Part shown: in pieces, positions 5,576 to 55,975 of the stretch
How the letters are laid out: every line of letters starts with the position of its first letter
How positions within the stretch are numbered: position 1 is the stretch's first letter
Assembly: GCF_963678975.1 (NCBI RefSeq)
Contig: NC_089273.1
Coordinates: forward strand, 4,675,788-4,739,787
Length of the DNA stretch: 64,000 nucleotides
Direction of reading: 5' to 3'
From: Dysidea avara
Taxonomy: Eukaryota; Porifera; Demospongiae; Dictyoceratida; Dysideidae
The notes under the pieces: model-generated
Told to the model about the DNA's origin: nothing
Databases searched by the model: none
What the model saw: the letters and a program-made list of their open reading frames with translations, nothing else
Program-made: the position numbers and the translations under genes

Positions 5576-5984
5576 TAGGGATGCGGCGATTATGCTGGCA
5601 TATTTTCGAGCATAATGGGTATGTGTGGGAATCAGTTATGCTAGCATTTTGAGGTGATTATAAAGCTTTAACTGTAGGAAAATCTGTAGACTGCACATTC
5701 CATTAAAAAATCGAGATACTCTAATAGAGCTGTCAGAAACTCTAATAGAACAGTCACTGAATATTATTTACTCTAATAAAGCAGCCAGCTAAAGAATTCA
5801 AGACTATTTAAAGCTTAAGCGTCATTGAAAATGGTCTGATACAGCAATAAACTGGCATTATTAGCCAATTATGGTGGCATAATTTTGGGAATAATGGGGA
5901 ATTCTCCAAAGCATAGTAGGTGATTTTTTAGCACTGCTCAAAAGCATAATGCTCAATTTTTGGAGCATAATAGCCTAATGCCTA
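5576..5984. mobile_element. hAT-like MITE with exact 8-bp target duplication
   Basis: 409-bp element with left end TAGGGATGCGGCGATTATGC; the right end, read inverted, is TAGGCATTAGGCTATTATGC. It is flanked by perfect 8-bp direct repeats GTACACAA (5568-5575 and 5985-5992), the hAT signature. Multiple internal GAGCATAAT/GCATAATAG words and a central CTCTAATAGAGC motif pair make it a diverged copy of the element at 55543-55975. No transposase frame, so non-autonomous. Confidence 0.85.
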
Positions 5985-6084
5985 GTACACAAAAAATTTT
6001 ACAATGTTGCTACAACAAGACAATTATTATTGATACGTACATAGATTCATCCCAGGCTCTTCAGCTAGTGATGTACATTTCCAG

Positions 6085-6480
6085 ATGTACTTGTTGGAGG
6101 GCCTGTCCGGGTGGAACCATGCTTGCAGACTGGCAGTAGCACAGCAGCCATCCAAGCATGTTAGGATATTCAACCTGGAGCTTGCATGCAAAGGTAGTGC
6201 ACTACACTGTTACAAACATCATTGTGAGAATGGTGGGTCAACCAACTCAGCTCCACTTTCCATGGTACCAGGCTGCTCCCTCACCACTATACCCCAACTA
6301 GCCACAAGGATGGGGAGAATTTAGGAGTGGATTATCTGTTCTGACCAACTGCTTTCCTTCCAAGACCTGTATGAGGGTTTTGTTGACTAGAGCATAGAAA
6401 ATCCACACATCTAAGAGCGAGAATTATTGTTGATGGTTTGTGAGGGAGCTGAAGAGGAAGAGGATGACTGTAATCACCAA
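6085..6480 (+). pseudogene. Decayed gene, middle part (uncertain frame)
   Basis: A 79-codon frame (6085-6324) and neighbouring segments in other frames (for example LHFPWYQAAPSPLYPN) look coding-like, and the stretch ends at AATCACCAACAG before GTAGGC, a plausible donor near 6483. I cannot recognise a domain. It lies on the same strand as, and between, better-supported pieces of the decayed gene. Confidence 0.25.
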
Positions 6481-6619
6481 CAGGTAGGCTAGTTGCCATG
6501 TTACACTAATGTATGTAATAAAATCAGGCTGCCTTTGAAAACACTGATGTGTCCATAAAGTGTTACTGATGTGTCAGGGATTTCTGGTTGGGACAGGGTT
6601 AGGCAGTTAGCATGCACAG

Positions 6620-7099
6620 ATGCTGGTGCAACTGAAAGGGATTGCTGTAGCAACTTCTCAAGCAAACCAACTCAAAATCCTTTATGATACCCTGCATGAT
6701 TATGACAAGAGAGATGTTAAAGCTCATCTCAAAGTTATGCCACAACTTCGAGGTCATTTTTATCACCAAAGAAGAGGAGAGTCAGTCAAGAGCTGTCAGA
6801 ATGTAAGTAATACATGTATGCAATGCAAAATAATGTGAAGTTTTATATTTTCTGGGAATCCTCCACCGCTTGGCCCAGCAAGTAGTAGGATTGTTGAGGC
6901 AATCTTTATCTTGCTGTGTCAGAAGACTCAAAAAGTTAGGAAAGTTACACAGTAATAGTATGAGCAGGTGGAGTGAAACAACAATACCTGTCCAAAACTT
7001 GAGAGTTTACAATGCCCTTCGGTCTCGGTTGTTTAACTCTTGGCAGGTGTTGGAGGAGACTAACTTGGCACTCCACCCAGTTAATCAGACTGGTTAGGT
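6620..7099 (+). pseudogene. Decayed gene, two further exons
   Basis: The first exon reads MLVQLKGIAVATSQANQLKI, then LYDTLHDYDKRDVKAHLKVM and PQLRGHFYHQRRGESVKSC, ending at a good donor (AAT then GTAAGT, 6799). The next, from about 6852, reads ILHRLAQQVVGLLRQSLSCC and continues basic and helical to a stop at 7097 (NALRSRLFNSW near its middle). The residue pattern is clearly protein-like, but no family is recognised. Together they suggest a nuclear, basic protein of a repeat-borne gene. The start codon used by the open frame is probably not biological, because the frame is open upstream of it. Confidence 0.4.
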
Positions 7100-7234
7100 A
7101 GTTTAAAAATTTTGTCACATGCAGTTCAGGTTTAATGATTGACTCCAACAACATTGCTGATATAATGACAATGTCAGGTGTGAGGAGATTGCATCAAGGA
7201 TGCAAGGGATAGAAGTACCAAAGCCATCATAAAA

Positions 7235-7485
7235 TGTGACCGGGCCTGCGAAAACAGGGCATGTGGGCACAAACTACATCCCATTGCTCTACAGGTCATA
7301 TCTCTGTACTGGAAAAGTATATTTCCATTCTGTAACTTGCATCATGATGCCACTTAAATGCTTACTAAGAGGTGAAAATTTCAATGCCATAGCATAATGG
7401 TACAAAACATTATGAGTGATGAAAATGTGAAAAAGTAGGCAAAAATCATGTGCCCACATGCCCTATTATCGCAGGCCCGGTCACA
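7235..7485. mobile_element. TGTGAC-type MITE, family A
   Basis: 251-bp element opening TGTGACCGGGCCTGCGAAAA then CAGGGCATGTGGGCAC, and closing with the inverted form (GTGCCCACATGCCCTATTAT then CGCAGGCCCGGTCACA). Other copies are at 28657-28904, 46372-46620 and 50613-50863. Flanking dinucleotides are AA on both sides here rather than TA. No coding capacity. Confidence 0.85.
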
Positions 7486-7683: not shown

Positions 7684-8077
7684 CATAGGCGGCGGAAAGG
7701 GGGGGGGGGGGGGGGGGCTAGGGGGCTAAAGCCCCCCCTAGGTCTGCTGAGGGGGGGCTTAGCCCCCCCTCAGAATGATATCACACCGGAATTATCTTTC
7801 TTGGAGTGGGGCTGAAAACCGTGATAAAGATCGAGATACTCTAATAGAGCAGTCACTCTAATAAAGTAGTCAGTGTGTAGCGAGCTATGTAAGGATTTTT
7901 ATGTAGTTTATCAGCTAGAAATGGTAGCTGGTGAGGTGGAAAGCTCTTGTGAGTTGGTTGTGACCTTTTTTTTTTTTTTTTTTTTTTTTTTTTGGTCTCA
8001 CCTTACTAAACTATAGAAATAAGTCTGGGTCAGCTCAGCGTAGCCCCCCCTCATATCAACTACTTCCTCCGCCGCTG
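7684..8077. mobile_element. hAT-like MITE inside the decayed gene
   Basis: 394-bp element with ends CATAGGCGGCGGAA and, inverted, CAGCGGCGGAGG, flanked by perfect 8-bp direct repeats GTCAGGGT (7676-7683 and 8078-8085). Inside are a poly-G run (about 7697-7718), a GGGGGCTAAAGCCCCC inverted block, the recurrent GATCGAGATACTCTAATAGA motif at 7829 and a 28-base poly-T (about 7967-7994). The motif-to-poly-T core is shared with the elements at 27236-27536 and 29256-29564, whose ends differ. Confidence 0.85.
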
Positions 8078-8960: not shown

Positions 8961-9120
8961 CCGTACGTATTGCCTAGGCTGCCTACAGTTCCAGTGCCAC
9001 ATCAGCTGCCTACAGTTTGTTTGCTACCTAGCTATGGAATACCCACAGCATAGCAGTCTAGACAACATCCTGCATCACCTCAATGATGCCAGTAGGTAAC
9101 GGATGTGCTATATTTCCATA

Positions 9121-9357
9121 TGTGACCCAGTCTGCGAAAAAAGGTATTATAGCCTTTCCAATTGTCAAGTGTGACTAATCATAACTCCTCATGTTTTCAA
9201 CCTATCACCTTCATATTACACCAAGTCATAGTACTATGTTAGGGGTATAAGGGGATCAAATTTCAGTGTGATACCACATTCACAAGTCAAGTTACGGGTT
9301 GCCAAGTACATGCAATTGAAAAAGGCTATAAGACCACTTTTCGCAGACTCGGTCACA
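9121..9357. mobile_element. TGTGAC-type MITE, family B
   Basis: 237-bp element opening TGTGACCCAGTCTGCGAAAA and AAGGTATTATAGCC; the inverted right end reads GGCTATAAGACCACTTTTCG then CAGACTCGGTCACA. Left flank TA, right flank TG, so the target duplication is intact or nearly so. Internal words CAAGTGTGACTAATCATAAC and CAAGTACATGCAATT tie it to the copies at 806 and 10483. Confidence 0.8.
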
Positions 9358-9409
9358 TGTATTACAGTGTGGTATATGTATTTCTCAATGCTGCATCTCT
9401 ACATTATTT

Positions 9410-11686: not shown

Positions 11687-13450
11687 GCTACTTCATGTAC
11701 ATCTGTCAGCAACTGTAAAGGGTAGAGTTTATTCAAGGACTATCCCATCTCAGAGTTTATTCAAGGACTATCCCATCTCAGAGTTTATTCAAGGACTATC
11801 CCATCTCATTTGGCGTCATGTCACTTCTCCAAGATAAAAATTGTATGTGCGTAATATTTACATTCACAATTGTGTTTTTATTTCTTACAAGGTATATAGC
11901 TACTAACTTTAGAAGAGTTTATTGCGGACCTTCAGCAGAGGATAGCTAGACAGACAGTGCTTTTTAGTGCATTTAGCTTATGAAGGTAGGAATTCCAGTA
12001 TCCAAGCATTTTTCAAAATTTAGAAATCCCATAGATTGATCAATAGGAACCCACAGAATATGCCAGAATAATTTTGCAAATAATAAGTGGTAGAATCAGA
12101 ATAATACTGTAGGACGATTTTCAGAAATAAGTAGAATTCATGAAGTGACTTGCGAAACAATTATAAAATTCTCTTGGAGAAATCCCTCAAACCCTGCTAG
12201 CATAAAACTGGAATAAAAGATCGAGATACTCTAATAGAACATTCACCTTCCCTAATAAAGCAGTCACCCAAATGTAAAGTGACTATTCTATTAGAGTATC
12301 TCAATATAATTATTTTATGTTTGCTAGTAATTACCTATACAGTTGTAGAAGAAAACAGAGGCAATTAACTGTATTTCAAGGATCGCTCCAGGGAATAATT
12401 TCAGGAGTTATAGGTAAAGAAATAAATTGCTAAAATAACAATAGGGAGACTTAAAAGTATATTCCACAGGTCCGTATTTCTTAACTAAACTGTTAAACAA
12501 AATAACAATTACTCCATAATATTATGTAAATGAAACTTAATTTTGTCCATAAACTAAACACCACTGAAATATTAGTAATTTGCATGCGTTGCTATCAAGT
12601 AAATTTTTCAATCTTTTAAAATTAAAACTGTGTATGCAGAAACTTAATAATAATTGTATTGTCAGATATAGAAGGCACTAATGTTTACTTTAAACTGCAT
12701 AGTTCCAAGGATTAGTTAACACAACCATTTTCTGATGATTGTGTTACCAACTTAAAAGCCACTTAATGTCAGAAAATAGTAACATGAATGAAGCCACGAA
12801 TCAACCTTAAGTGCTGTTGCATCATTGTGATACATCTACATCAGTTGTTTACCTTCATAAGCTGCTATATTTTAATCTTTTCCTAACTTGAGATAGCCAC
12901 TTGCCCATTGCCTACATGTACACACATTTTATTGAAAAGTGTGCATTGGTTGGCTATATATAGAACATATGTGCTCACCACAAAGCATACAAAGACATCA
13001 CTGAGATCCAACAAACCCTAAAATTAACATGTCAATACTTTCAGTACATGTGTGTACAGACTTGCAACTACATGTAGAAGCTGCTGCAATTTCAGGTTGA
13101 TACATGGCCTCATAGTAAATGTACTGTATGGGGAACACTGTAAAAAAAGTAAGTTTACCATTTTCATTTGAAACGCTGTACATGCCAAAGTATAGCCAAT
13201 CCCAACCCATATACTTTATTGAGCATAATATAAAGACCATTTTTCCAAGACTGGAATACTTAATGCAGGCTACTATATAACATAACTATCACAAGGAGGA
13301 TAACAATTACGTGGAGGTTGTGGCACCCTTTGACTTCATTACTACATCAAAAGAAGTAGACATATATAGGCTTTCTCAAGTGACTTGCACCCATAACAAT
13401 CTAATACAGCAGACATAACTAGATGGTTAGCATAACTCTCTGTATAATCT
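11687..13450. repeat. Segmental duplication, copy 1
   Basis: Colinear with 16155-17955 at high identity over about 1.75 kb (for example CTACTTCATGTACATCTGTC at the left and TCTAATACAGCA then CATA.CTAGATGGTTAG at the right). A 28-bp unit (GAGTTTATTCAAGGACTATC plus CCATCTCA) occurs three times here (11725-11808) but once in copy 2. The palindromic CTCTAATAGA motif pair at 12219-12305 is present in both, so it predates the duplication. A shortened third copy lies near 28965-29215. No gene inside. Confidence 0.8.
11725..11808. repeat. 28-bp perfect tandem triplication
   Basis: Three identical head-to-tail copies of GAGTTTATTCAAGGACTATC followed by CCATCTCA. The duplicon partner near 16190-16220 has a single diverged unit, so the expansion happened after duplication in this copy. 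Confidence 0.9.
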
Positions 13451-13494
13451 TAATACTTTATGATATTAATTTTTGATATAAGCAAAATAATGTA

Positions 13495-13594
13495 TGACCA
13501 TAGCACAGTGGCATAAAAATTATAGGAGATGAAAGTTAGAAAATGTAGGCAAATTTTATGTGCCCATATGCTCTGTTTTCTCAGGTCCAGTTAC
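13495..13594. mobile_element. 3' fragment of a family A MITE
   Basis: The right-hand part only: AAAATGTAGGCAAATTTTAT, GTGCCCATATGCTCTGTTTT, CTCAGGTCCAGTTAC matches the end of the family A elements. The left half is missing or unrecognisable. Confidence 0.55.
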
Positions 13595-14274
13595 TAGAGG
13601 TGAACATGAATTCACTCCCTGTTGCACTGGAACAAGCATGTTTACATATTCTAAACATGTTTGCACACCTGAATCATGTATACTAAAATTAATGTATGGG
13701 GTATTTGTAAAGCCTCACAACTCATATCAAAGTGCTTTTTTATGAACAGTTCTAGCATTTTGAAGGCTTCACAGTACTACTAAATGCTTGGGAAGCTGGG
13801 ACATGTAACAAGAATTAATGAGGGCCCAAGTGATCACGAACCAACTATGAACACAGTAACAACCCATATCCTCTAACATAAGCCAGACAAACTAAATTCA
13901 CTGCTGGCAGATACTCATAGATTGGTGGATAAAATGTCTTGTATAGCCATCAGACCATTTTTATCTTCTTTTGTGCATTAGCGGTGAATTTCTCTAAGGA
14001 AAACAATGAGGTTTGGTTATTTTATGCAACAATAAGTATTAATGTGTTATGCAAAATTAAATTAAATGTGACTGTGTCCTTGTACATAATAGACTATAAC
14101 CATTGTACAATAGTTATATACTGACATCTGCAAGGTACACTGAATAAAAAATATGGTCAAAATTATGTACATATATATTATGAAATTGATATTACAACCA
14201 TGTATTGCAAATGAGAAGAAAAAGAGTATCTAGCTATGTACATCATTATAATAAAGCTATACAGTAAATAACAG
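13595..14274. other. Downstream of FReD gene A; nothing recognised
   Basis: AT-rich DNA between a MITE fragment and the 3' end of the minus-strand FReD gene. Two 61-codon plus frames here have no features of a real gene. Confidence 0.4.
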
Positions 14275-15097
14275 CTAAAAACTAACAACAGTTAATGTGA
14301 AAGTTTCAAACAAAATGCATTTCTGAGTTGACGTTTTGGTTTTGGGATTAGAATATACAACCAGCTGATCTGATTTCATTTCAATAAACATTAGTGGTTG
14401 CCACTTTGAATTCAAATAAATTCCATGTGTCTTTTTTATTTGATTATTTGGAATAATGTGAGTGCATCTTCTATACCACCAGCCACCACCAGCACCAACA
14501 CTGTCCGTAGCACAATTCTTACTCCAAAGCATCGTTATCTTGATCTTTAGTTGTAAAATGCATACCATTTATAATGAGAACCTGTCATTGGATCAGCTGA
14601 AATGATACCTTCAAATCCAGATACCTTTAGTCTGTACTTAGTGTTAGCTGATTCAACTGCAAATGTTTTGTATGATGCATACGACTTGATCCCATCAGTG
14701 AAAGTAAAGTCAATACGTAACTCCCATAGTCCCAGACTGGTCAAGCAGTGGATAGTACGTACTCCGTACCTAAATTCTCCTGTCAAGCTACCAAATCCAT
14801 CTTCATAGTCTACCCATGGCCTATTAAAATCAACACTTCCATCAATTCTCCTTTGAATAACAATCCATCCTCCTCCATCAGTAGTAGCATCACAGAATGC
14901 TTCAGCTACCAGTTCACGATCACCACAGAAATTAGTAATGTTGTAAACTCGAGAAGTGACGGTTTTAGTAAACTGGAATTCATTGCTTCTAACCTCACAG
15001 CAACTGCCATGTACTGATGATATTATAGGAAACCCATCAGTTGTAGCAGAAATTATTGATAAGAGGTTATTATGGCAGCTACAGTTGTAGTAAGCAT
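14275..15097 (-). pseudogene. FReD gene A, frameshifted fibrinogen-domain gene
   Basis: Minus-strand fibrinogen-related gene. From ATG at 15095-15097 the leader reads MLTTTVAAIITS, a signal-peptide-like start; the frame then changes and continues SIISATTDGFPIISSVHGSC and C, DGGGWIVIQRRIDGSVDFNR, WVDYEDGFGSLTGEF and WELRIDFTFTDG, all hallmark FReD segments. Near 14566 the frame changes again (a short MHFTTKDQDNDA segment holding the calcium-loop-like DQDND), and near 14524 again into WSKNCATDSVGAGGGWWYRR and C, then FIEMKSDQ and a 28-residue tail not present in gene B. Three frame changes within about 800 bp mean a pseudogene, unless they are assembly errors. A TATA box lies 58 bp upstream of the ATG. 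It is more diverged from B and C than they are from each other. Confidence 0.85.
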
Positions 15098-15146
15098 CTC
15101 ATCACTTTGAACAGGCAACTTCTATAGTGTATTTTAAGCAGTGCTT

Positions 15147-15155
15147 CCTTTTATA
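15147..15155 (-). promoter_or_regulatory. TATA box of FReD gene A
   Basis: TATAAAAGG on the minus strand, 58 bp before the first ATG of gene A. Genes B and C have the same word in the same relative place, which supports both this site and the chosen starts. Confidence 0.65.
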
Positions 15156-16154
15156 CTATCTAGCGTTCCTTATGTGGACACTTATTGGTATCATTTGTTG
15201 CTGTCTATATTTAGTAGCACTTGAATTTTACCTTATATGACATAAAATCAACTGTTTTCTTACTATTGTTAGAACAAAAAAGTCCCTAGCAAAGGTATAG
15301 TATATTCATTACTATTTTTAATTTCATTTGGAAGGATTCTGTTTTGTGTACATAACCTCTATCATGTCTGGACTCGTGAGGTACAATTTGCATTAGCCCA
15401 CATTCCATCAAAGTAAAGTGAATAAGCCACACACACAGTAGTTGCATGTGATGTGCTGTAGGCATGTTATAAAGAGATCATCGTTATTATGTGACTGATG
15501 TCTGACAAAACCAGTTTTCCATTATGGCATAGTTTCATTAATCATAACACATTGTAGTAACTTGAAACTTGGTGAGCCTAAAACTGTTGCGCAGCACTAA
15601 AGTGCAGGAAGATATCGAGTAGACTCATTAAAAGTAATGTTATTGGAACTTACTGTATGAGCTGTCAAAGTTTTGATACACTGTATCTGGAAGGGCTATA
15701 AGACTGGTACAATATCACATGTTATGCTCATCAATATTTAAAAATCCAGCTTCCTTTTCCTGCTATTATTTTTTGTCTGTTTTTTATGTAGTATCATACT
15801 GTAATATATAGATAGAATTTAGCTATTCAGCATATGGCATAGCTATAATATGCACTGGTAAGACAGGCAAGCCATTTTAGATTAGTAATTCTGTGAATGT
15901 TATCCAACTAGGGACCTGAGAGAAGGCTTAAATCCAGTGAATACAATCCCTAAAACATGTAACTAAAACGTGAATATTGCTAACAATTGCAAGTAAGTAC
16001 TCTGAATAGCTATCCAATATACAAATTATATTTATTCTTATTTAGGATTGTAGATCTTGGTCTCATGTCTGCGTAATTGTTCATATTGGAATTTCCAGCA
16101 ACAGTCAGTGAATGGAGTATCTATATTACTGTATTCTCTTCATTAATGAGCAGC
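15156..16154. other. Intergenic; diverged family B MITE at about 15490-15700
   Basis: Most of the interval shows nothing. Between about 15490 and 15700 the words TGTGACTGATGTCTGACAAA, AATCATAACACATTGTAG and GGGCTATAAGACTGG are a worn copy of the family B MITE. Confidence 0.45.
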
Positions 16155-17955
16155 TGCTACTTCATGTACATCTGTCAGCAACTGTAAAGGGTAGAGTTTG
16201 TCCAAGGACTATTCCATCTCATTTGGCTTCATGTCATTTCTCCAATGTAAAAAATTGTATGTGCATAATATTAACATTGTACAATTGTGTTTTTATTTCT
16301 TACAAGGTACACACTAACTTTAGAAAAGTTTATTGCAGACCCTTCAGCAAAGGATAGCTAGACAGACAGTGCTTTTCAGTGCACTTAGCTTATGATGGTA
16401 GGCATTCCAGTATCCAAGCATTTTTCAAGATTTAAAAATCCCCATAGATTGATCAATAGGATTAACCCACAGAATATGCCAGAATAATTTTGCAAAATAA
16501 TAAGTGGTAGAATCAGAATAATACTGTAGGACGATTTTCAGAAATAATTAAAATTCATGAAGTGAACTTGCAAAACAATTATAAAATTCTCTTGGAGAAA
16601 TCCCTCAAACACTGCTAGCATAAAACTGGAATAAAAGATCGAGATACTCTAATAGAACATTCACCCTACCCTAATAAAGCAGTCACCCAAATGTAAAGTG
16701 ACTGCTCTATTAGAGCATCTCAATATAATTATTTTATGTTTGCTAGTAATTACCTCTACAGTTGTAGAAGAAAACAGATGCTATTAGCTGTATTTAAAGG
16801 ATCACCCCAGAGAATTATTTCAGGAAGAAACAAATTGCTAAAAGGAATAATAGGGAGACTTAAAAAGCATATTCCACGGGTCCATATTTCTCAAATAAAC
16901 TGTTAAACAAAATAACATAATTACTCCATAATAATATGTGAATGAAACTTAATTTTGTCCATAAACTAATCACCACTGAAATATTAGTAATTTGCATGTG
17001 TTGTTGTCAAGTAAGTTTTTCAATCTTTTAAAATTAAAACTTGTTGCAATTGTGTATGCAGAAACTTAAAAATATAATTGTATTGTGGGATGGAAGGCAC
17101 TAATGCTTACTTTAAACTGCATAGTTACTTTGCTAGATATATTAAATACAAACTTCTAACTAGCTTAACTACCAAACTAAGTACTTTAACTACAAAACTA
17201 GCTACCTTAACTACAAAACAATCTTGCTTGGATTAGTGATTTTCAGCTACACAACCATTTTTTGATGGTTGTGTTACCAAGTCAAAAGCCACTAACAATT
17301 TCAGAATACAGTGACATTAATGCTAATGAAACCACAAATCCACCTTAGATGCTGTTGCATCATTGTGATACCTCTACATCTGTTGTTTGCTTTTATAAGC
17401 TGCTAGATTTTAATCTTTTTTCCTTACTTGATATAGCCGCTTGCGGCCTTGCTCATGGTCTACTGATATATAGAATATATTTGCTCATCACAAAGCATGC
17501 AAAGAGATAACTGAGATCCAACCAACCCTAAAACTAATATGTCAGGTCTTTTATTAGATGTACAAACTTGCAACTAGAAGTTGCTGCTATTTCAAGACAG
17601 TCCAAGTTACTTTCTAGATGGCCTCATAGTAAATGTATGGGTAGCACTGTAAAAAGTAAGTTTACTATTTTCATTTGAAACACTGTACATGCCAAAGTAT
17701 AGTCAATCCCAACCTGAATATACTTTATTGAGTATAATGTAAAGACCATTTTTCCAAGACCGGAATACTTAATGAAGGCTACTAACATAACTATCACAAC
17801 GAGGATAACAATTAAGAGGAGAGTGTGACACCCTTTGACTTCATTACTACATCAAAAGTAGTGGACATATATAGGCTTCTCAAGTGAATTGTACCCATAA
17901 CAGTCTAATACAGCAACATAGCTAGATGGTTAGAATAACTTCCTGTATAATTTAT
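16155..17955. repeat. Segmental duplication, copy 2
   Basis: Direct partner of 11687-13450. Relative to copy 1 it carries small indels, including an extra AAC/TTAACTACAAAACTA-like stretch near 17155-17220, and only one copy of the 28-bp unit. Its downstream continuation (about 17953-18600: GGGATACTATATCTGAATG, ACATTCTGTGTACAAAAACC, ACTAAAAATCTGGTAGAAAT) has a diverged match after the third copy (about 29745-30200), so the ancestral duplicated block was longer. Confidence 0.8.
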
Positions 17956-18573
17956 TGGTATGAATGGGATACTATATCTGAATGTTGTGGCAGATACATT
18001 CTGTGTACAAAAACCTTATCCAAACTTTTCACTAAAAATCTGGTAGAAATTATTATGTGATTTGAATCATTTGATTTGGGAAAGTGATATTACCACCTTT
18101 ATAAAAACCTATCAGGAGAAGCAATGAATTAAAGGCATACTCAGGGCTATAATTGCAATGAAACATCTTTGTACATAATTAAAACAATGGCCATAGTTGG
18201 CTATAACTTATCAATATCACCTGATTACTAATGCTGAAATACCAAGCTAGCTAACCTGGAGACAAAAGTTTGAACCAAACTCAGCAAAATTGAATAGATG
18301 CAGACTGCAGAACAATCAAGAATTCTTTTTGTTTTCCAAAGTCTAATAACTTAACACTGCCATGTGGGTTAAATTTAAAAGAGACATTGATTAGCCACAA
18401 ATTTCATGTAGTTGGTAACATTTGTGTGGTACAACCACTAATCATGACAATAATGTATAAGCAACAGTTTAAATTAAGTTTCTAGCTATAATGCTCTAAA
18501 TAAATTGCAAGCAATAGAGTGTAGTGACATAGCCAGAATTTCATTACCAACATCTATTTGATTAATTTTACTA

Positions 18574-18939
18574 CTAAAACAACCCCACTCTAGATCCATT
18601 AAATCTATTGAAATCAACAGTTAGTTCACCACAGAAATAACGATACAACATTAATATTACTAAGGTTATGATAAAGAGTCTGGTAAAAACACTGAGATAC
18701 CGGAAAGAGAATAACAGGACTTTAAAAGAAAAGGTATCCACCAAAAAAGAGAAAATCTGTTGGTCCTTTGTCTGGTTCTGTACCAGCGATGATCCCTTCA
18801 GATGTTCCTGGGATGAGTACATAAAATAATTGTTATTACTGTAACTCAAAAACATAACTTGTGTAAATACCATGCTGACATTGAAGGCATGCACTGACCA
18901 GGATGGCAAGCCTATGATGTGTTCCATGGCTGAATGTTA
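18574..18939 (-). CDS. Putative downstream exon(s) of ML-like gene
   Basis: After CTTAACATTCAG (minus strand) a frame reads AMEHIIGLPSWSVHAFNVSM and VFTQ, and about 80 codons later RYFCGELTVDFNRFNGSRVG with a stop at 18574. In ML domains the strand after CP(I/L)..G is followed by a Pro-Ser turn, Phe-x-Val-x-Met/Val-x-Phe and a last Cys-containing strand, which these two ends resemble. The hydrophobic stretch between them (FSFKVLLFSFRYLSVFTRLF) does not fit the fold and may be an intron that happens to stay open. The exon at 19067-19192 would be its 5' neighbour. Moderate to low certainty. Confidence 0.35.
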
Positions 18940-19066
18940 AGTGTAATTGAAGGAACTAAACCTACTAGTTCTGTTGTGTCCCCTGTTTTTGTTATTTGCT
19001 GCACTGCTAGGTTTTGTAAAGGATTATAAAATTAAAATGTATACGTGTTTAATTCATTTACTATAC

Positions 19067-19192
19067 CTACAGGTATGGGGCACTGCTTGCTAATCTGCTG
19101 GACAACATCACACTCATTGTACCTTTGATCTAACACAGTGATAATACTGTACTTTGTAACCACCTCGATTTTGCCACCAGTAATTTCCTTAT
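19067..19192 (-). CDS. ML-domain-like exon (lipid-recognition family)
   Basis: Minus-strand 126-nt segment bounded by an acceptor (TTATTTCACTACATAG) and a donor (CCTGTAG then GTATAG). It reads KEITGGKIEVVTKYSIITVL and DQRYNECDVVQQISKQCPIP V. GG-x-(I/V)-x-V-x-x-KY near the start, then (L/E)CD-V and (K/T)xCP(I/L) at the end, is the pattern of the central part of ML (MD-2-related lipid-recognition) proteins of the NPC2 and PG/PI-transfer type, secreted or lysosomal lipid carriers. The family assignment is from memory of the pattern, not a search. The 5' exon with the signal peptide was not found; the DNA upstream is occupied by a Ty3-type fossil, so the gene may be broken. Confidence 0.5.
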
Positions 19193-19619
19193 CTATGTAG
19201 TGAAATAAGTATAAGCATACAATACATGCAACAATAGTTAGGGTCATAAAATGGTGATTAGAGCTCTAGCCCATTGACGTGTTGCGATCTAAGGTGTGAA
19301 GTTGCTTTGGCTTTGTATTTCACAATAATTATTTAAGAGGGAAAATATATTAAGCATTCTACACCTGTATTACAAAAACCTCTCCAAACAGAATAACTCA
19401 TCACAGCAAATGTATGTTATGTACTTTTACCTACTAACTCACCTAATTAATATATGACAATACTTTATGTAACCTTTACTAGTGTTAGCTTTATTAATTT
19501 TATAGTTTTGTTTGTACATGTGTATTGTTTTCATATTCTGTGAAGCACCCTTATTCATGTCTGAAGCCTTATGGTGAGACCACATACACTCCTTCTGTAT
19601 ATAGGTCTGTTCTGATTTA

Positions 19620-20540: not shown

Positions 20541-20548
20541 TATAAAAG
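20541..20548 (+). promoter_or_regulatory. TATA box of FReD gene B
   Basis: TATAAAAG lies 44 bp before the ATG at 20585. This gives a very short leader of roughly 10-20 nt if transcription starts about 30 bp downstream, matching the arrangement at gene C. Confidence 0.7.
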
Positions 20549-20584
20549 CAATTGTACTTATTCCATTTCATCTGCTAACAATTG

Positions 20585-22480: not shown

Positions 22481-23110
22481 TAATAAATCTGTGGTAATAA
22501 GATACTATCAACATGTAAATTATAGTGCAGCATTTAAAATTCAACATTTATCAAGTTTAAACAATATTCTTAATTCTACACTTAATATACCTTTTACTGA
22601 TTTATATAAAAAAAATTGTTTTGTTATTATCACTATGACTGTTGTATTAATTCAAGTAGTTTACTGTTCTATTAGAGAATCTCTATCATCTGTAATCATA
22701 AACATTTTCTGCTTTATACAAGAAGGCTCAGTCAGTGCTGCATATCAGTGGTGTCAGGCCTGGCTCACTTCTTACAGTTACAACTGGTTAGTCAAACACA
22801 TATACATGCTATACTAAAGGGTATCTACAAATTTCTAAGGATTGATTACTTTCAGTGAGTGCAGAAATGAGTTGCTCTATGTAGTGTGCAGTAGTCATTG
22901 GAACCTGATACCATCGGAAGTGGTTAAAGGTATCTGCACTAAGCAATACAGAGTTACAGTAACTTGTACAGGCCTACGTATATATACTTGCCGTGGATAT
23001 GTACATCTACTTTACGATATAATCAATAAATACCTGTCTTTATCATCGCCAACATCTATTAGATAAACAGCCCACTCTAGTAGATCTGTTTAATTCCATT
23101 GAGATCAATC
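22481..23110 (+). other. Possible small exons, unrecognised
   Basis: A frame ending at about 22780 (SVSAAYQWCQAWLTSYSYNW before a GTTAGT donor) is followed by an acceptor (GATTACTTTCAG, 22855) and a frame with CRNELLYVVCSSHWNLIP and EVVKGICTK. Cys/Trp content and splice signals are suggestive, but no family is recognised and no start exon is found. The end of the interval (near 23065-23105) resembles 18570-18635, so part of the interval is a diverged duplicate of the ML-like 3' region in the same orientation, which argues against a new plus-strand gene. Confidence 0.2.
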
Positions 23111-24922: not shown

Positions 24923-24930
24923 TATAAAAG
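24923..24930 (+). promoter_or_regulatory. TATA box of FReD gene C
   Basis: TATAAAAG lies 39 bp before the ATG at 24962, the same arrangement as gene B. The promoter is kept although the coding part is disrupted. Confidence 0.65.
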
Positions 24931-24961
24931 AGCAGCACAGTTGTAATGTGATCAGTCTACA

Positions 24962-27235: not shown

Positions 27236-27536
27236 CAGGGGCGGATCCAGACTTTTAAAAAGGGGGGTTCCACTTTGAAATTGCAACTTCAGCCTAGCTG
27301 TATAAGTTGAAGACAAAAAAAAAAAAAAAGGTTATCACCTGCTGACAATAGCTGCCACCTCACCAACTATATTTCCTTCCTTATTTATAACTAGATATAT
27401 GGATTGCTACACTGCTCCTCAAAAGACTACTGTGACTACTCTATTAGAGTATCTCGAGTAAGAGAGGCTTTTCAAAAGGGGAGTTCCATGGAACCCTTTG
27501 ACCCCCCCCCCCCCCCCCCCCCTGGATCCACCCCTG
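27236..27536. mobile_element. hAT-type MITE, CAGGGGCGGATCCAG ends
   Basis: 301 bp with ends CAGGGGCGGATCCAG and CTGGATCCACCCCTG. No 8-bp target duplication is visible, so flanks have changed. Inside, read on the minus strand, is the core shared with 7684-8077 and 29256-29564: the CTCTAATAGA motif (about 27430-27460), a TTATAAATAAGGA-like stretch, TATTGTCAGCAGGTGATAAC and a poly-T (poly-A on plus at 27315-27329). Near the right end is a 20-odd-base poly-C. Confidence 0.8.
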
Positions 27537-28964: not shown

Positions 28965-30200
28965 AGTGTAGGATATTATTCATACTTCCAGTACGTGTAC
29001 AAACGTGCAACTAGAAGCCGCTGCAATTTCAAAACAATCCAGGTTACAAGATGGCTTCATAGTTTGATTGCACCATATTTATGTATGGGGGAGCCCCAAA
29101 GAAAAAAATGTACCTTTTCTGTTTGAAACATTGTGCATGTCAAAGTAGCTGATTCCAATCAGATTAAAAACAAATACTCTTGTCTCTTGATATTTATTGA
29201 GTACATTAGAAAATACAGGCAGGAATGTCTAACAAATGTTTAATAGCATTTGAATCATAGGCGGTGGAGACGGAGGGGCCAGGGGGGCCATGGCCCCCCA
29301 CTTTTATGGGACACTGCTTGCAAGAAAAGATCGAGATACTCTAATAGAACGGTCAGGATCTGGATACTCTAATAGAGCAGTCACAGTATTCAGAGAAGCA
29401 GTGTAGCAAGTTACTTAGCTACGTATGTGTAGTTATAAATAAGGAGATATAATTAATTGGTGGAGAGCAGCTATTGTCAGCAGGCTGTGACCTTTTTTTT
29501 TTTTTGGTTTTCAACTTACAGCTGGCTTGGCCCCCTCACTCTTTGGCCTGCTCCACCTCCCCTGGTTTGAATGACATATGGAGGACAACGGTTACAAAAT
29601 TGGGATAAGCTTATTCATCCAGTGTTGCAATGCAACATAAAAACAAGTGCAACTGACCAACTGTAGACTCCTAGAGTAGTCAGTCTCTTATTACAGCAGA
29701 CATTGACAGTTTGCATAGTGTATGTTGTTACTGCAGATATATAGTTGGCTGGGATACTACGTACACCTGTATGTTGCTATGAATGCATTCTGCGTACAAA
29801 ACCATTTCAAAATGTTTCACTAAAATCTTGTGAGAATCATGGATTGATTGCTATTTGATTTATGAAGTGATATTGTCATCATGCCAGAGGCATTACAAGA
29901 AGAGCAATTAAGACAATAGATGAACCACACAAGATGCAGCTATTACAAATGAAGGTCTTTACCCTCAGTCATGGCCAACTTATCAATAATTTATATCAAC
30001 AAAAAGGACACAGTTTAGCTGCAAATACAGATTATTAGGCTATAGCTAATATAACCCACTTAGAGACAAATTTTTAAACCAAAAACACAAGATTGAAATT
30101 GCAGCATGAGTTGTAAACCAAAACTGCATGAATTCTGAATATATATATTTTACAAAATATTAAGATTCAAACTTCAGGAGATGATCATGACACACTGTGT
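28965..30200. repeat. Segmental duplication, copy 3 (diverged, interrupted)
   Basis: Blocks at 28965-29215 (CTTCCAGTACGTGTACAAAC, CAACTAGAAGCCGCTGCAAT, TTTGAAACATTGTGCATGTC) match about 13025-13215 and 17535-17740; blocks after 29740 (CAGATATATAGTTGGCTGGG near 29733, GCATTCTGCGTACAAAACCA, CACTAAAATCTTGTGAGAAT) match the continuation of copy 2. The copy is interrupted by the MITE at 29256-29564. No FReD coding sequence was found attached to this copy. Confidence 0.6.
29256..29564. mobile_element. hAT-like MITE in duplicon copy 3
   Basis: 309 bp with ends CATAGGCGGTGGAG and, inverted, CAGGGGAGGTGGAG, flanked by ATTTGAAT (29248-29255) and GTTTGAAT (29565-29572), 7 of 8 identical. The inside holds GGGGGGCCATGGCCCCCC, two CTCTAATAGA motifs (from 29329), the TTATAAATAAGGAGATATA core and a poly-T near 29492. 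Non-coding. Confidence 0.8.
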
Positions 30201-30658
30201 AAATAGTTCAATATTCACTATGTTTATGCATTGATTATTGTAATGCTTGGTAATGAGATACTGTAGCATAAGCAGTGGAGATCTTTCATGTAGATCACAG
30301 CACCATTATTTTAGTTTAAATTATTCTAAATCATTTTATTTAATTTTCTTTGTTCTACATTATAATTATACTTTCCGATTTAAAAAAAATATTCTGTTAG
30401 TTATCACTATGACTGATAGCATATCTTCAGATGTATTCATTATTTCTTATCTACAATACTTTATGCACAGCACAATTCAATAACCTTTGAAAGACTATCT
30501 ATAAAAGAGTCAAATACTCCAATAGAACAATCATTATAACTACACTACTATAGGAAAGATGATATAGTCTGAGAATGTAAGAGTTGAATAAGCAATTGAG
30601 CAAGTGTTATTAAAAGCATATTTGGAAAAGTAAACTGGAATGGACTTGCCCAATCAAC

Positions 30659-32855: not shown

Positions 32856-33500
32856 CAGGGGCGGATCTAGGATTTATAAAAGGGGGGGGGGGGGGCTAAC
32901 TCAAGGTACTAATCTCTTGGGTAGAGATGTGTGAAGCACACTTCCCAGCATGCAAAGCATGCTGGAACTAGGGGGGTCTGGGGGCATGCCCCCCCCTGGA
33001 AAAATTTTGAAAATAGATGCTAAAATACTGCAATTTGAGACATTTCCACATAAAATTCATAATATTTCTGCCTGTAGATATTTTATATACTGCCTTTAGA
33101 TTGTAGGTATGGCTCTCTGAAGCATTTTGCTAATGGAAAAGTTTGGGTAGGTTACAGACAACCAAGTACATGATGCACCCCTCTCACAATTGTACAACAC
33201 TGAATAGGTGCATGTTAGAATAACAATGTTGAAAGTGGAAAATTTTGAAACTTGAACAATACAAGATTGAATCTGAGAGCATTTTCAATGGAAATTGTGT
33301 ACCTGAATTAAGTATTGCCATACATACAAACTGCACAAGTAGATGAATGAAGCACTTTAAACAGACCAATGCACTTCATTGTATGCATAGGTGCAGGTAG
33401 ATTTGGAAAAATTCCATATAACAGAACTAACTACATGTTTACAGTGAATGTTCTATTAGAGTAGTTAGCTGACTGCTCTATTAGAGTATCTCGATCTTGT
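32856..33500. mobile_element. Left part of a hAT-type element, CAGGGGCGGATC end
   Basis: Starts CAGGGGCGGATCTAGGATTT and a poly-G run, followed by GTGTGAAGCACACTTCCCAG, GGGGGGTCTGGGGGCATGCC and a GAAAAATTTTGAAAA phrase also seen near 11100 and 43660. At 33441-33495 it carries two inverted copies of the CTCTAATAGA motif. A matching inverted end (GATCTGCCCCTG) exists only at 35641-35653, 2.8 kb away, so the right boundary is unsure. Confidence 0.5.
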
Positions 33501-33724
33501 ACACCTCCAATGCTGATCCGAGTCCTTGTTGCATAAACTTTAGCATAAATCCACTGATAATACCTTGGAAAGATGTTTATAAGGTGGTTTTATGAGTATT
33601 TATATTATTAGTGATCATATAATTATGCTAAGACAAAATTTCATTATAATACTAAGCATATTGATCAAGTAAAGCCTAAATATGAAGGGGGGGGCTTCAG
33701 CCCCCAAAGCCCCCCCCCCCTCCG

Positions 33725-36205: not shown

Positions 36206-36219
36206 TATGGTACAAACAA

Positions 36220-42060: not shown

Positions 42061-42722
42061 TGTGACTGGATTTTGGAAAAACGATCCAAATCGCACATTA
42101 GAAGTTCCGAGATAAACGGTTTTAAAGAATTGAAGTCAGCATAACTCTCCAAGGATAGCAAGCACGCGTATGAAATTTACACAAAAGATGCATCAATCTG
42201 TTACCTTTCAAGCCACTTCCAGTACTTGTAGCTGCTTGTACAGTTTCCTGCCAAATAAGATAGAAAATCTGAGCAGTTGGACGAGCGAAGTAGTATCACG
42301 AGTGCTCACAAAGGGGTGGAGGCTGGGGGGTGGAGGCGGGGGGGTGGCGGGGAGGGCAAAAGTTAGACCTCAAAATGGAGGCAGACCACGATTGGAGTCC
42401 AGACACCAGATTACAGGGCTGTGCTGGCTCCTTAGTGGCTGATATGTAGCAAAATCAGCAGAGAACACGTCTGGCCAACATTATAAGGCTGTCCACCAGT
42501 AAACCACTGACTCTTGCCAAGCCAGGTCCTTCACAAGGCCTGAAACCGCCATTTGAGCACTCCACACCACCCAGAAAAGACGTGTGTAAAAACCAGCCTC
42601 GTGTAGTTTGAGTAGTGCTGAGGGTCAAAACTTGTAGTACGATAGTGCAGCTATCCACTGGTGGTGTTAGTTTGATTTTGCCTGATGTGCGATTTGGATC
42701 GGTTCTGTAAAATCTGGTCACA
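42061..42722. mobile_element. Complete 662-bp TGTGAC element with paralogous empty site
   Basis: Left end TGTGACTGGATTTTGGAAAA ACGATCCAAATCGCACAT, right end ATGTGCGATTTGGATCGGTT CTGTAAAATCTGGTCACA. The related DNA near 58957 has an uninterrupted TAATTTTATTTTACAAAA, so the element inserted with a 2-bp duplication (TT, where TA is usual). It contains a G-rich tract near 42315-42355. The minus frame at 42455-42721 is not a recognised protein. Non-autonomous. Confidence 0.85.
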
Positions 42723-45399: not shown

Positions 45400-46190
45400 A
45401 GCTATATAGTGGGAACTTGGGGATCCCATCCCCTCAGAAATTTTTGGATTTTCAATGCATGGAGATTACTTAGTATTTTGAAACCCAAAACTCCTTCAGC
45501 AGCCATGCACTGCATCATAAAACATAATAGCTTGGAGTGCTATGCCAGAATGATGCTAGAATGGTAGGTGAAACTATGGAACTTAATTCCATGAAGATAG
45601 ATCGATATTGCCTAATACAATAGAGCACTCAAATACATTGTACATATACTGTAGCTTCTTAGATTGATATGTACTCTCTACTTGAACAGTCACTTTGTAG
45701 TGGAATACTCTAATAGAGCATTCACTGATTAAAAGTTTTCAAGATTATTGTAAGAAATGTTGCTAACTTAGGGCCATAATGCAAGCAGAATGGGAACACT
45801 GAAGAGCATAACAGGTGGAAATTTTTGGGAAATTCCTAAAATCATTTTTTGAGCAAAATTTTGAGATTTTTTGACTCAGGACTATGTATACAGACTCTAA
45901 TGAATGTATATAATTAACGTTATGATGAATTGATAATGCAATGTTTTGTGACATGTTTTATAATCTGTAGCAACTCACAATTATCAATCTGAAGTGTTGT
46001 TGAAGAGTCACTGTGCACGGTGATAGTTTCATAAATTCTTTATGGATTTCTGATTGAATAGAAAGGTGAATTATAGAGTGATATAACATATCCGTGGTAA
46101 GTAGACAGTTGACTACTTAAGATATGACTTGAAATAGCTATTGGGGGGCCATGGCAACCCCCCTCCCAGCCCCCCACTTCCTATGCTTAT
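45400..46190. mobile_element. Patchwork of worn MITE ends
   Basis: GGGGATCCCATCCCCTCAGA near 45420, a CTCTAATAGAGCATTCACT motif at about 45710, TAGGGCCATAATGCAAGCAG with GAGCATAACAGG at 45770-45815 (worn relative of the 55543 element) and GGGGGGCCATGGCAACCCCC with CCCCACTTCCTATG at 46142-46186 (end like that of 29256). Boundaries cannot be fixed. Confidence 0.45.
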
Positions 46191-46371
46191 GCTTGTGTAC
46201 TACTTAAAGAACATTCTCTTAAATTATAAGAAACCATTTACTTGAGTAGTTTTATGGGCAATGGACTGTACGTGATTGTTCCATGAAAACTTACTGTTAG
46301 TTAATACTCCAAGATGTTTGGTGGTTGACTGATTAAGAATTCCTTAATAGGAGATTCTATAAAATTACATA

Positions 46372-46620
46372 TGTGACTGGGCCTGCGAAAATAGGGCATG
46401 TGGGCACATGATTTTCCTACTTTTTCAAACTTCTATCACTCGCAACTTTTAATGCCATTATGCTATGGGAACGTAATTTTCAGCTCTTAGTAAGCATTCA
46501 AGTGGCTTTATAATGCAAGTCACAGAATGTAAATATTCTGTTTCAATACTGAGATATGACCTGTAGTGTGACAGGGTGTAGTTTGTGCCCACATGCCCTG
46601 TTTTCACAGGTGTGATCACA
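46372..46620. mobile_element. Family A MITE, TA-flanked
   Basis: 249 bp, TGTGACTGGGCCTGCGAAAA TAGGGCATGTGGGCAC to GTGCCCACATGCCCTGTTTT CACAGGTGTGATCACA, with TA on both sides. The orientation of the interior is reversed relative to 50613-50863. Non-coding. Confidence 0.85.
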
Positions 46621-47089
46621 TATAATAATTACAATGTGTGCTCATTTATTTATATTATGAAGAAATTCACATTTTCAAGTGTTTGCCATTTAAGGTGGTG
46701 TATACAGGAAGCCTATCTAATAGGAAGCCTATCTAATAGGAAGCCGTATGAAAACAAGCTATAATGTCACCACAAGAAATTCTAGGTGAAGTTTTCTTCA
46801 AACTTGACATGTTAATTTAACATAGTTAAGCTATCAAACTAAAATTATGATACACACACAAGCTATGTAACTTAAAGCTGTTTTGTAATAGATCACACTA
46901 TTTTGTACTTGTGTCACCACACTGTATGATCAAGCTCTGGCTCTGTTAATCCGTTATTGTTTAGTGAGTAATATAGTGTGTATTGTAATATTTTGACTAT
47001 ATCGTGACGTTGATGCTCTGACCAAGATACTGTAGATTTGTTGTTTTGTAACCCTCCCCAATACTGTGACATGTTTTTAATGGTACATG
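46621..47089. other. Non-coding spacer; nothing recognised
   Basis: AT-rich. A short tandem duplication (AGGAAGCCTATCTAAT twice, about 46706-46741) is the only structure noted. Confidence 0.4.
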
Positions 47090-50499: not shown

Positions 50500-51050
50500 A
50501 GATGGTATTTCCAGTGGCTTATTGAATACAAAAAAGCTTGATATAACCTGTATTATGTTTACAATCTCATGTAAGACTTTAGTTAATGTGTTAAACATAC
50601 TGAAACCATATATGTGACCGGGCCTGCGAAAACAGGGCATGTGGGCACAAACTACACCCCGTAACACTACAGATCATATCTCAGTGTTGGAACGGAATAT
50701 TTCCAATCTGCAACTTGCAGCATAAAGCCAATTAAATGCTGAGTGAGAGCTGAAAATTGTATTGCTATAGCATTATAATATAAAAAGTTATGAATGATGG
50801 AAGTTTGAAAAAGTAGGCAAAAATCATGTGCCCACCTGCCCTATTTTCGCAGGCCCAGTCACATATGTGATGGTATAGTATGGGCGTTATACTAGATATA
50901 AGCTATTTCAGGTAATGTGGTAAATAAACTGAAACCATACATGTAATAGTATAGTATGCATTATACTAAAGTATAATTATGAGTATAATACAGGATTTAT
51001 ATTAAGGCTCATTTGTATTCAATAAGCCACTGGAAATACCTACCCTTTTC
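50500..51050. mobile_element. Larger inverted-repeat element hosting the family A MITE
   Basis: GGTATTTCCAGTGGCTTATT GAATACAAA at about 50505 and TTTGTATTCAATAAGCCACT GGAAATACC at about 51016 are inverted copies. Between them are GTATAGTATGGGCGTTATAC words and the MITE at 50613-50863. The NML-to-downstream junction in the sister unit (about 54230) lacks it, so it is an insertion in unit A. Confidence 0.65.
50613..50863. mobile_element. Family A MITE, TA-flanked
   Basis: 251 bp, TGTGACCGGGCCTGCGAAAA CAGGGCATGTGGGCAC to GTGCCCACCTGCCCTATTTT CGCAGGCCCAGTCACA, with TA on both sides. Very similar to 7235-7485. It lies inside a larger palindrome: flanking ATTTCCAGTGGCTTATTGAA (about 50508-50527) and its inverse (about 51021-51040). 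Confidence 0.9.
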
Positions 51051-52984: not shown

Positions 52985-53460
52985 TAGAATGCCATATCCT
53001 AGGTCGCAATGTGTCTATGCTGACCTTCCTGGCTACCAGGCAAGTGTTAGTCCCCAAGTACTATCCCACTAATATCACGTCTACCCTAATCAGATCTGAT
53101 CTCATGCTAGTTTCCACAGATTCCATCATGCTATTGGACCTCTCTGTGGTTACTAATACTGAACATCATCTTTTGGCTGCAAGGAACTGTAAAAAACATT
53201 GCTATGGTTCATTACTGCTGGATCTTCAACATGCTGGACGCCTGGATTTTAGGTTGAACTTTTATGACAGTTGAAGTTGACTGTCTAGCGATTTCATGAC
53301 AGTGACCATTACAAAACTTAGTAATGCATGTCATATACCAAACAGTACAATACATTGCATACTTCAGAAGGCAGCTCGTGCTACTATCTTCTGTTCGAAC
53401 AAGATGTTTAACTCACGGACTTCAGCATCATGGGATGTAGTCAATTTGTTGAACTGTTGA
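52985..53460 (+). pseudogene. LINE-type endonuclease tail, copy 3
   Basis: Same protein segment as 39725-40190: CHILG, YADLPGY in the neighbouring frame, then SDLMLVSTDSIMLLDLSVVT, TNTEHHLLAARNCKKHCYGS and LLLDLQHAGR. The later part (TVEV..LAIS region) is in another frame. It shares most of its differences from copy 1 with copy 4, as expected from the tandem duplication. Confidence 0.5.
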
Positions 53461-54620
53461 TAAACTGATAGCAGCTATGTAGATCACTTAGGGATGTGGT
53501 GATTGAGTAGATTATAACTGGTGTTTGTTGATCTGACACTATGTCAGGTCAAACTCTATCTAACATGATGTTACATTGTATTAAAATGCAATTGCAAAGC
53601 AGATTAGATGGGAGGAAGAGATAGCTTGCTTCAAATTACATAGTATCCATCCTTACACTGTATCACATGCTATGTGGTGAGCACTTGCTACAAAGCTGGG
53701 ACATCAACCAGCTTGTTTGTTAAGTTCATAGAATTGTACCTGTGTGGAAGACCCAAATCCTATTACCATGCATGTGAATGTTGTTAGCTACTCTATCTAT
53801 GGCTGCACTACACAAAAATATATCACTATATGAATAATATGATGGTGGTCCAAAAAGGATATCCCAGGAAGAAGTGGGTACTCAACCTTATTATTACACC
53901 AACAAACTGTTGAACTGTAGTAAACAACTTTGTGGTAAGGTAGTTACATGGATGATAGCACTTGAATATTATTTATAAGTCCATTAGCACTTCCTCAGAA
54001 CTAGTTATGTAATATTATTTAATATCCACACAACTTCAACAGTCACTAGTTTAGTTTATCCATCTATTCAACAGTATGAGTTCAGTTTTGAATTCTTATA
54101 TGTCTTCACAAAATATGGGCTGCCTTACCTTCCTGTTTGAAAGTGTGTAAACTGATTTTCTATGGCTAACTGTAACACTGCTCACTTTTTACTCTTTACA
54201 AACATTATAAACCAAAAAGCTAGCAAAGCTAGAGTGAAAGTTCAGGGTACTGAAAGGGTGTTGGTGATGGTATTATGTTACATACTGTAATTACATAGTG
54301 TAAGACCTCTGTCAACATATTTTACAGAATTGTAGAGAAGACATACAGATGTATTAGCAGTGTTAACAGTGCACAGTGCTTGTATTGGACATTATTTTCG
54401 ATAATGAACTACTCTAAAGGTTTTGTGTGGTTTTTGTGAAACATTGTGGAAGTTTTATATCTTGTGGTGAATGACATTAATTTATAAAACACTTCTTTGG
54501 TATAAAAGAAAAAAACTTGATTCCAGTAGACCAATCCAGTAGTTTAGTCTACTGTGTGTGTGGTGGGTTTATCACTGTTATATGTGGTGCCATTGGAATG
54601 CAAACATTGCTGACAAGAGT

Positions 54621-54740
54621 ACAAGAAAGGTCACCTATACCTGCAGATATACTAGTGAATATTTAGTCCTTAGTTTATTCTATACCCTTGACCTGAAATG
54701 TCTACTAGTATATCTTCAGGAGTAGGCAACCTCCCTTGTT
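54621..54740. mobile_element. Palindromic short MITE, copy c
   Basis: Unit B counterpart of 51451-51570, differing at a few bases. Confidence 0.75.
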
Positions 54741-55542
54741 TCCCTACTTTTTTCTATGATCCCTAATCAAGCGTATCTTTCCTTAGACTTGTTTGTTTAC
54801 TTTATGTAGCATTATTATGTCTGGTGAACCCATGCATAGTGCATCAAAAGAAAGGATGGCACCAGAGTTAATTTTTCGTCTGAACATGTGCTTACTATCA
54901 ATTATTGACTAGAAAGTGAAGTGGTCATTGTGTTTCACTTTCAGCTATGTTCAGCCAGTTACACAGTGCTACAAATGAAGAACAGCCTCTGAAATCAATC
55001 CAGCCACCATGAAAAATATGGATGATTTGCTTACCCCAACTGAGTCAAAAATGAAGTGGCCATTACACTTTGCTTTCACCTATTTTCATCCCAGCATTAC
55101 AAACGAAGACACCTCTGCAATCAATCCACTCTTCATAGAAAATACAGACCATTCTCATTAAAATAGGGAGCCATGTATCGCGCTACCTTGAATTTAATGC
55201 CTTCAACTGTCAACAAAAATAAATAGGCACAAAGGAGGACAAAGGTCAGTCCATGATGCATGTGTTTTATGTACTGTGATATGCCAAAAGGCACATCTAG
55301 GGACAAAGTGACATCAAACAGTGAGAAAATCTAACCGTAGCATTAATTATTATCATGTTACACTTTACTGAAGGTAGGCAGGTAGTTAATCAGTCAGTAA
55401 AAATCCAATTTTTGTTTATAATACTTTAGCTACCTATTGGAAGCATTTTGGAAGCAGGCAATTTTGAAAGGCTCTTTTGGGCTTGGTGATACCTAATCAA
55501 TACTGCCAATGTACCATACTGTGATATTCTTGGCCAGAAAAT

Positions 55543-55975
55543 TAGGGACCTGCCGATTATGCTGGCATAATAATGAGCATAATAGGTGCCTGAAAGCATT
55601 GAGCATAATGCTAGCATAATAGGCAGAATGCATATGCATTACCATGAATTCTTGCTTATCAAAATGCAAATCACAGAAAAAGATCGATATACTCTAATAG
55701 AACAGTCAGAGAATAGTCAGACAGCTGACTGTTCTATTAGAATATATCGATCTTTTCTGTGACATGCATTTTGCCAAGCAAGGATTTAGAGTCTGTGCTT
55801 CAGCAACTTACTGTTTATCATAAAGTGCATATTTACTAGAAAAACATGGGAATTGAGGCATAATTTGAGCATAATAGATAAATATTGAGCATTAATTTAA
55901 GCACAATAGGCTAAATTTTGAGCAGTGCAGCATAGCATAATAGGTAAAATAATGAGCATAATCGGCGGGTCCCTA
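55543..55975. mobile_element. hAT-like MITE with 8-bp duplication and empty site
   Basis: 433 bp with ends TAGGGACCTGCCGATTATG and, inverted, TAGGGACCCGCCGATTATG. Perfect 8-bp target duplication CAGAAAAT (55535-55542 and 55976-55983); the sister unit has the single empty copy at 52380-52387. The centre is an almost perfect hairpin of about 100 bp (about 55665-55770) containing GATCGATATACTCTAATAGA and its inverse. GAGCATAATAGG words fill the flanks. It inserted after the tandem duplication. Confidence 0.95.

Follow-up and report, generated by a model that had tools for sequence, protein, structure and literature searches.

The 18-bp word CTCTAATAGARCAGTCAC, which recurs in short arrays along a 64,000-nucleotide stretch of the genome of the sponge Dysidea avara (contig NC_089273.1, positions 4,675,788 to 4,739,787, here called the window), provides an unchanging core for several families of non-autonomous transposons whose ends are unrelated, and its arrays can tentatively be read as sites for a putative DNA-binding protein. 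Transposon families are usually defined by their ends and their enzymes, while the core described here is common to families that differ in their ends and probably also in their enzymes. The observation that the inside of these elements is shared and the ends differ had already been made in a preliminary description of the window, and it is borne out, as at least three host groups (A, B and D) show no alignment with one another once the motif is masked.

The unit, its arrays and their abundance

In the window, the 18-mer is found 22 times at up to three mismatches, against 0.11 matches expected, and this search recovered all nine places where the preliminary description had seen a strong motif. 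Among its three weak places, those near 22672 and 30515 reach 22-23 bits with a 20-column matrix, while the one near 59943, with 11.7 bits, is close to the noise (simulated windows lead one to expect about 3.7 hits exceeding 9 bits each) and is therefore not counted. Eleven of the twelve places thus hold, although 12219 and 16637 are not independent but represent one insertion copied by a segmental duplication of 951 bp with 89% identity.

The 550.8-Mb genome (108 contigs) holds 24,570 exact copies of the unit, 12,258 in forward and 12,312 in reverse orientation, and the reversed pattern, searched as a control throughout the genome, gave no exact match in either orientation. Arrays containing a unit with at most two mismatches number 10 in the 64,000 bases of the window and 27 in 87,000 bases flanking 29 group A elements (the element L153 was omitted from the flank count as it lies in the window), with zero arrays in a dinucleotide-model control. 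Extrapolation gives a genome total of roughly 0.9-1.7 x 10^5 arrays, whereby the sampled flanks may be transposon-rich.

A profile of 19 aligned units, selected from 26 candidates by leaving out three duplicates and four weak ones, confines high information to columns 0 to 17, with sharp edges. Ahead of first units, at columns -12 to -1, stands a 12-bp prefix, AAGATCGAGATA, and in a larger set of units with up to three mismatches (67 first or solo and 33 downstream units) this prefix is concentrated in first units, with many solo units being devoid of it. The word GATCGAGATA, which the preliminary description counted as part of the motif, accordingly belongs mainly to first units. An A in column 8 is more frequent among downstream units (7/33) than among first or solo units (4/67, p 0.038).

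Arrays usually consist of one to three units, and their spacers vary from host to host while the units remain alike. In 21 stretches with 191,017 bases, 20 of which had been chosen because they bear the motif, 44 of 49 neighbouring pairs have the same orientation and 5 the opposite one, the most frequent same-orientation spacings being 17 bp (14 cases) and 21 bp (9 cases). The description of the motif as palindromic consequently applies to its 11-bp centre, CTCTAATAGAG, and not to the arrays, where neighbours are mostly direct repeats.

This arrangement bears on two ideas put forward in the preliminary description. A tiny foldback element that inserts itself into other elements is suggested by the arrays at 12219/16637 and 55682, which do contain inverted units, but it is highly improbable in view of the predominantly direct arrays, the absence of any visible target duplication of their own, the fixed position of the array in group B (see below) and the lack of a clean empty site in the paralogous comparison at 22668. 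Equally improbable is a hairpin RNA unit similar to a microRNA or small interfering RNA, as folding beyond that of shuffled versions was seen for two foldback arrays (z -15.4 and -6.1) and not for two arrays of direct repeats (z -0.2 and 0.4), which does not support it as a general rule, and no Rfam family reached its gathering score in the window.

Host elements of the arrays

Arrays were sampled from 20 stretches that surround exact copies of the unit (127,017 bases, 78 units) together with the window, which gave 57 arrays with a best unit of at most two mismatches. With the units masked, these clustered into groups of nine (A), seven (B) and six (D) and into five pairs. Group A consists of hAT-type miniature inverted-repeat transposable elements (MITEs) ending in G/C runs and group B of MITEs with TAGGGACC ends, both with 8-bp target duplications. 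Relatedness of the hosts was assessed with 21 arrays hand-picked from the 57, with units and prefix masked, both orientations of each pair compared and the line drawn at z 5. No pair between groups exceeded this line for A-B (0/60), A-C (0/24), A-D (0/48), B-D (0/40) and C-D (0/16), although the top A-D and B-D values, 5.0 and 4.8, lie barely below it; A-F gave 1/24 and B-C 3/20. Within groups, 17/30 (A), 8/20 (B) and 6/12 (D) pairs were above the line. The case that would undo the observation of shared insides, descent of all hosts from a single ancestor whose ends diverged, can therefore be rejected for A, B and D as far as the sequence can tell. Groups B and C, however, are probably related, as their alignments suggest, and subfamilies of A with different ends have about 150 bp beside the motif in common.

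The array is a fixed, constitutive part of group B. A profile of the left part of B, built without the array, had 13 hits in the sampled DNA of this genome, with a unit at most 260 bp away in all 13. For six of the 13, the locus had been retrieved on account of an A element and not of the motif (two in L155, one each in L177, L181, L164 and L179), and inspection found each with an array of its own, that of L164 at four mismatches only. B copies chosen independently of the motif thus carry the array, which argues against a tiny foldback element hopping into single copies. In L179, the left part of B is separated from B's own array by a nested A element. A profile of the right part of B was accompanied by the unit in 10 of 11 hits, the exception, L160, stopping at the edge of its locus. 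Group B combines 8-bp target duplications with terminal inverted repeats, for which the pair TAGGGACCTGC/TAGGGACCCGC was also recorded.

Among 30 copies of group A, 22 have an 8-bp target duplication with no more than one mismatch when the boundary is left unshifted, and 27 if shifts of up to 6 are allowed; most of them end in CA...TG terminal inverted repeats, CATAGGCGGTGG / CCACCGCCCCTG or close variants. The unit is present in all 30, the search query having itself contained it. At L138:5036-5335 and L138 ~6930-7260, the interior of A is combined with the ends CAGGGCC[AG]CCC and CAGGGGGGGGGC.../...CTGGATCCGCCCCTG, so that ends appear exchanged around one interior.

The six members of group D are, judged from their sequence, copies of a long Helitron-like element devoid of terminal inverted repeats. 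They are alike over up to about 800 bp ahead of the array, have the first unit at a fixed place and continue behind it with a minisatellite of 31-bp repeats that differs in length between copies, with a closing block of about 430 bp in copies that have both ends. All four left ends have A directly before TCAAGACAC, i.e. A before TC. The right ends have a hairpin, ACAGCTTGGCTGT, followed by about 10 nt ending in TTAG (ACAGCTTGGCTGT...GATTAG) and not in the canonical CTRR, and AT mostly comes next. Neither a terminal inverted repeat nor, by eye, a target duplication was found in L151 and L144a, the copies with both ends present. Helitron-borne binding sites have reportedly been the subject of a study in Drosophila.

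The right block of D, a palindrome of about 330 nt, was noted in L144, L151, L150, L156, L168 and L182, and in the last three it occurs apart from the left block, hence it may move independently. At L138 ~2477-2700, a minisatellite has TTAGAGTATCTTGATC in its unit, which in reverse complement is a prefix-like word.

The array is not common to all MITEs of this region, as seven elements of an abundant, MITE-like family with TGTGACC inverted-repeat ends (2535-2798, 7235-7485, 9120-9358, 35952-36208, 42061-42722, 46369-46623 and 50607-50869; found among the 25 of 38 inverted-repeat pairs that were listed for the window) have no unit.

A putative binding-site array and its alternatives

A sharply bounded unit that is repeated with variable spacers and shared by unrelated hosts fits an array of sites for a putative DNA-binding protein, and of the three ideas in the preliminary description a regulatory signal that was captured or kept repeatedly would accommodate the data best. 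A predicted DNA-binding protein would recognize the units, and elements bearing the array might be mobilized better, or might be expressed or escape silencing in suitable cells. The array would have been passed between families by recombination or capture, for which nested elements, as in L179, or template switching are possible routes, and would later have been retained. The binder would more likely be a host factor, or a factor common to several elements such as an anti-silencing protein, than the transposase of one family, because features of cut-and-paste transposition are seen in A and B but not in D, so that different enzymes are to be expected. It is possible, if doubtful, that lineages moved by unrelated enzymes, hAT-type MITEs and a Helitron-like element, share the array of one factor, that the array and not the ends determines their success, and that about 10^5 putative binding sites have arisen in this way. 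Selection and exchange could then act on the recruitment of a single factor, be it for expression, for targeting or for avoiding silencing, and one regulatory word would have been seeded over a genome by unrelated elements; the motif, being short, abundant and clear-edged, offers a directly testable case.

Several observations weigh against this reading. Host partners were lacking in the sample for 25 of the 57 arrays, and a blind test for target duplications with inverted ends, positive for 5/57 arrays versus 14/342 random places, shows no clear excess and adds little alone. All six D copies come from loci chosen by the motif, and in motif-chosen loci conservation of the units is partly built in. 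Two full-length hAT transposase loci, inspected with 4.5 kb each, which may belong to families other than A and B, contain no unit at up to four mismatches; one of them, when inspected, had TAGGGCTGAAAC ends, resembling B in TAGGG only. The genome has 1,875 hAT transposase candidates, of which 150 were scored, all above the cut-off; the two inspected loci are from these 150. The 30 A copies, on the other side, speak for the reading: letters off the consensus amount to 13/1,080 (1.2%) in units, 7/354 in the prefix and 164/6,148 (2.7%) in the rest outside homopolymers, so that units are about half as variable as the rest (Fisher p 0.0027, a value that is not strict as these are the best-scoring copies and share ancestry). 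Within-family contrasts in the window support such extra conservation weakly, one of the four being significant (Fisher 0.009, 0.12, 0.13 and 0.16).

An alternative is that several families captured the array as a neutral fragment of a pre-existing repeat, be it an element or a minisatellite, and copied it along with themselves, without its having any role. The arrays without a host partner, the continuation of the D array into its 31-bp minisatellite and the prefix-like word in the minisatellite beside L138_2477 agree with this explanation, and slippage fits the spacings of 17 and 21. We nevertheless regard it as rather unlikely, because units remain alike where spacers and hosts differ and vary less than the rest of the 30 A copies.

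Less probable still is that the array represents a site inside the elements of a single hAT lineage to which the transposase binds, the ends having evolved faster than this core, as put forward for the CMITEs of corals, with D as a captured piece. The 8-bp target duplications of both A and B, the further sequence common to B and C (3/20 pairs) and the A subfamilies with a common interior and different ends are consistent with it. On the other hand, A and B have nothing detectable in common outside the array (0/60), D is not an element with terminal inverted repeats, and the unit was met in neither of the two hAT loci, the families of which may differ from A and B.

The putative binding-site array has partial parallels in other organisms. 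The CMITEs of Acropora corals are MITE families with differing terminal inverted repeats and a common internal region more conserved than the ends, which has been proposed to function in transposition (PMC2872659). They resemble the array hosts in having different ends around a conserved inside, but are elements of about 100 bp of the piggyBac type, with TTAA duplications and a 75-bp core (PMC2872659), whereas the core here is an array of 18-bp units in hAT-type hosts and one Helitron-like host. Neither TTAA duplications of the CMITE type nor piggyBac ends were encountered, the duplications of A and B being 8 bp long and varied in sequence. In Caenorhabditis, the MITEs CERP2 and CELE2 harbour thousands of copies of paired HIM-17 m1m2 motifs in direct or divergent orientation (PMC9757741) and so likewise represent short motifs carried by more than one MITE family; the two MITEs are, however, related and their binding protein is known (PMC9757741), while the hosts here are of unrelated sequence and the binder is putative. 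Direct arrays of a short motif, grown by tandem repetition in non-coding parts, are also found in the VANDAL transposons of Arabidopsis in connection with the VANC anti-silencing proteins (PMC5735166, PMC10398659). These arrays within transposons are similar to the present ones, but VANC motifs are family-specific (PMC5735166, PMC10398659) and the motif described here is common to several families. Differing ends with a conserved inside are thus already known, and what would be new is that the array is common to a Helitron-like element as well.

None of six motif strings occurred in the papers that were searched for them. Among viral contigs, the 18-mer and a pattern of the B ends had no match and a 16-mer 34 single matches. 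A comparison of 27291-29560 with a phage collection gave no match. A relaxed 17-mer had 89 single matches in contigs of other genomes (80 of them listed), which are attributed to chance since they fall below our own chance estimate of about 240 and not one of these loci gave a match to the window (blastn, E 0.01) or had a second good unit array. The single match to a pattern of the A ends, in L124 (26 bp, 92%), located at a contig edge among dense open reading frames (ORFs), was likewise left as chance.

Arrays, host elements and genes of the window

Table 1. Positions of motif arrays and host elements in the window.
Feature	Position	Strand	Basis and remarks
Group B host element	5576..5984	+	TAGGG... 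ends, subterminal GAGCATAAT words, exact 8-bp target duplication GTACACAA
Three-unit array, prefix ahead of first unit	5709..5788	+	Motif matches, profile
Group A host element	7684..8077	+	Ends CATAGGCGGCGGA.../...TCCGCCGCTG, exact target duplication GTCAGGGT
Two-unit array, spacing 17 bp, prefix ahead of first unit	7826..7873	+	Motif matches, profile
Array of two direct and one inverted unit	12219..12306	+	Host group C
Duplicate of the 12219 array	16637..16725	+	Copied by the 951-bp segmental duplication (89%)
Degenerate two-unit array, no visible host	22635..22687	-	Motif matches, profile
Group A host element	27236..27536	-	CAGGGG[CT]GGATCCAG ends, given also as CAGGGGCGGATCC
Single unit with prefix	27432..27459	-	Motif matches
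Group A host element	29256..29564	+	Target duplication ATTTGAAT/GTTTGAAT, 7/8 letters
Two-unit array, 28 bp apart, prefix-like lead on both units	29329..29384	+	Motif matches, profile
Weak single unit, 3 mismatches, no visible host	30517..30534	+	Motif match, profile
Probable host, A-like ends	32856..33723	-	Weak profile matches, E 0.006 and 0.1
Two-unit array, 25 bp apart	33444..33496	-	Motif matches, profile
Degenerate array in which two units are clear and another is very weak	45600..45725	+	Probable degenerate B host
Group B host element	55543..55975	+	TAGGGACC[TC]GC ends, exact 8-bp target duplication CAGAAAAT
Foldback array, two units in opposite orientation	55678..55756	+	32-nt arms, 97% complementary

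The two B elements of the window (Table 1) align with 59.6% identity over 441 columns, and the host at 45676 scores 78 against B (shuffle maximum 41), with a weaker excess for a comparison with one A element (score 44, shuffles up to 37). The interior of the A element at 27236-27536 is common with other A elements of the window at 70-76%, and no matching 8-bp pair was found as its target duplication; for the A element beginning at 29256, 40 genome copies were scored. The word TATATATA on both flanks of the probable host at 32856 lies within an AT microsatellite and is uninformative as a target duplication. The ends of the group C host at 12219 are not fixed, with GGAATAAT-like words on either side of the array, and the degenerate array at 22635 is largely absent from a paralogous stretch near 30403-30435.

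Besides the transposons, the window has an ORF of 235 amino acids (60932-61639, +), which had no Pfam match at E 0.001 and which may resemble an Ulp1-like peptidase. The region 12557-27000 contains tandem fibrinogen-related genes (ORFs 14547-15098, 20579-21394 and 25002-25505) in segmentally duplicated surroundings, and the two of these ORFs that were tested both match Pfam Fibrinogen_C.

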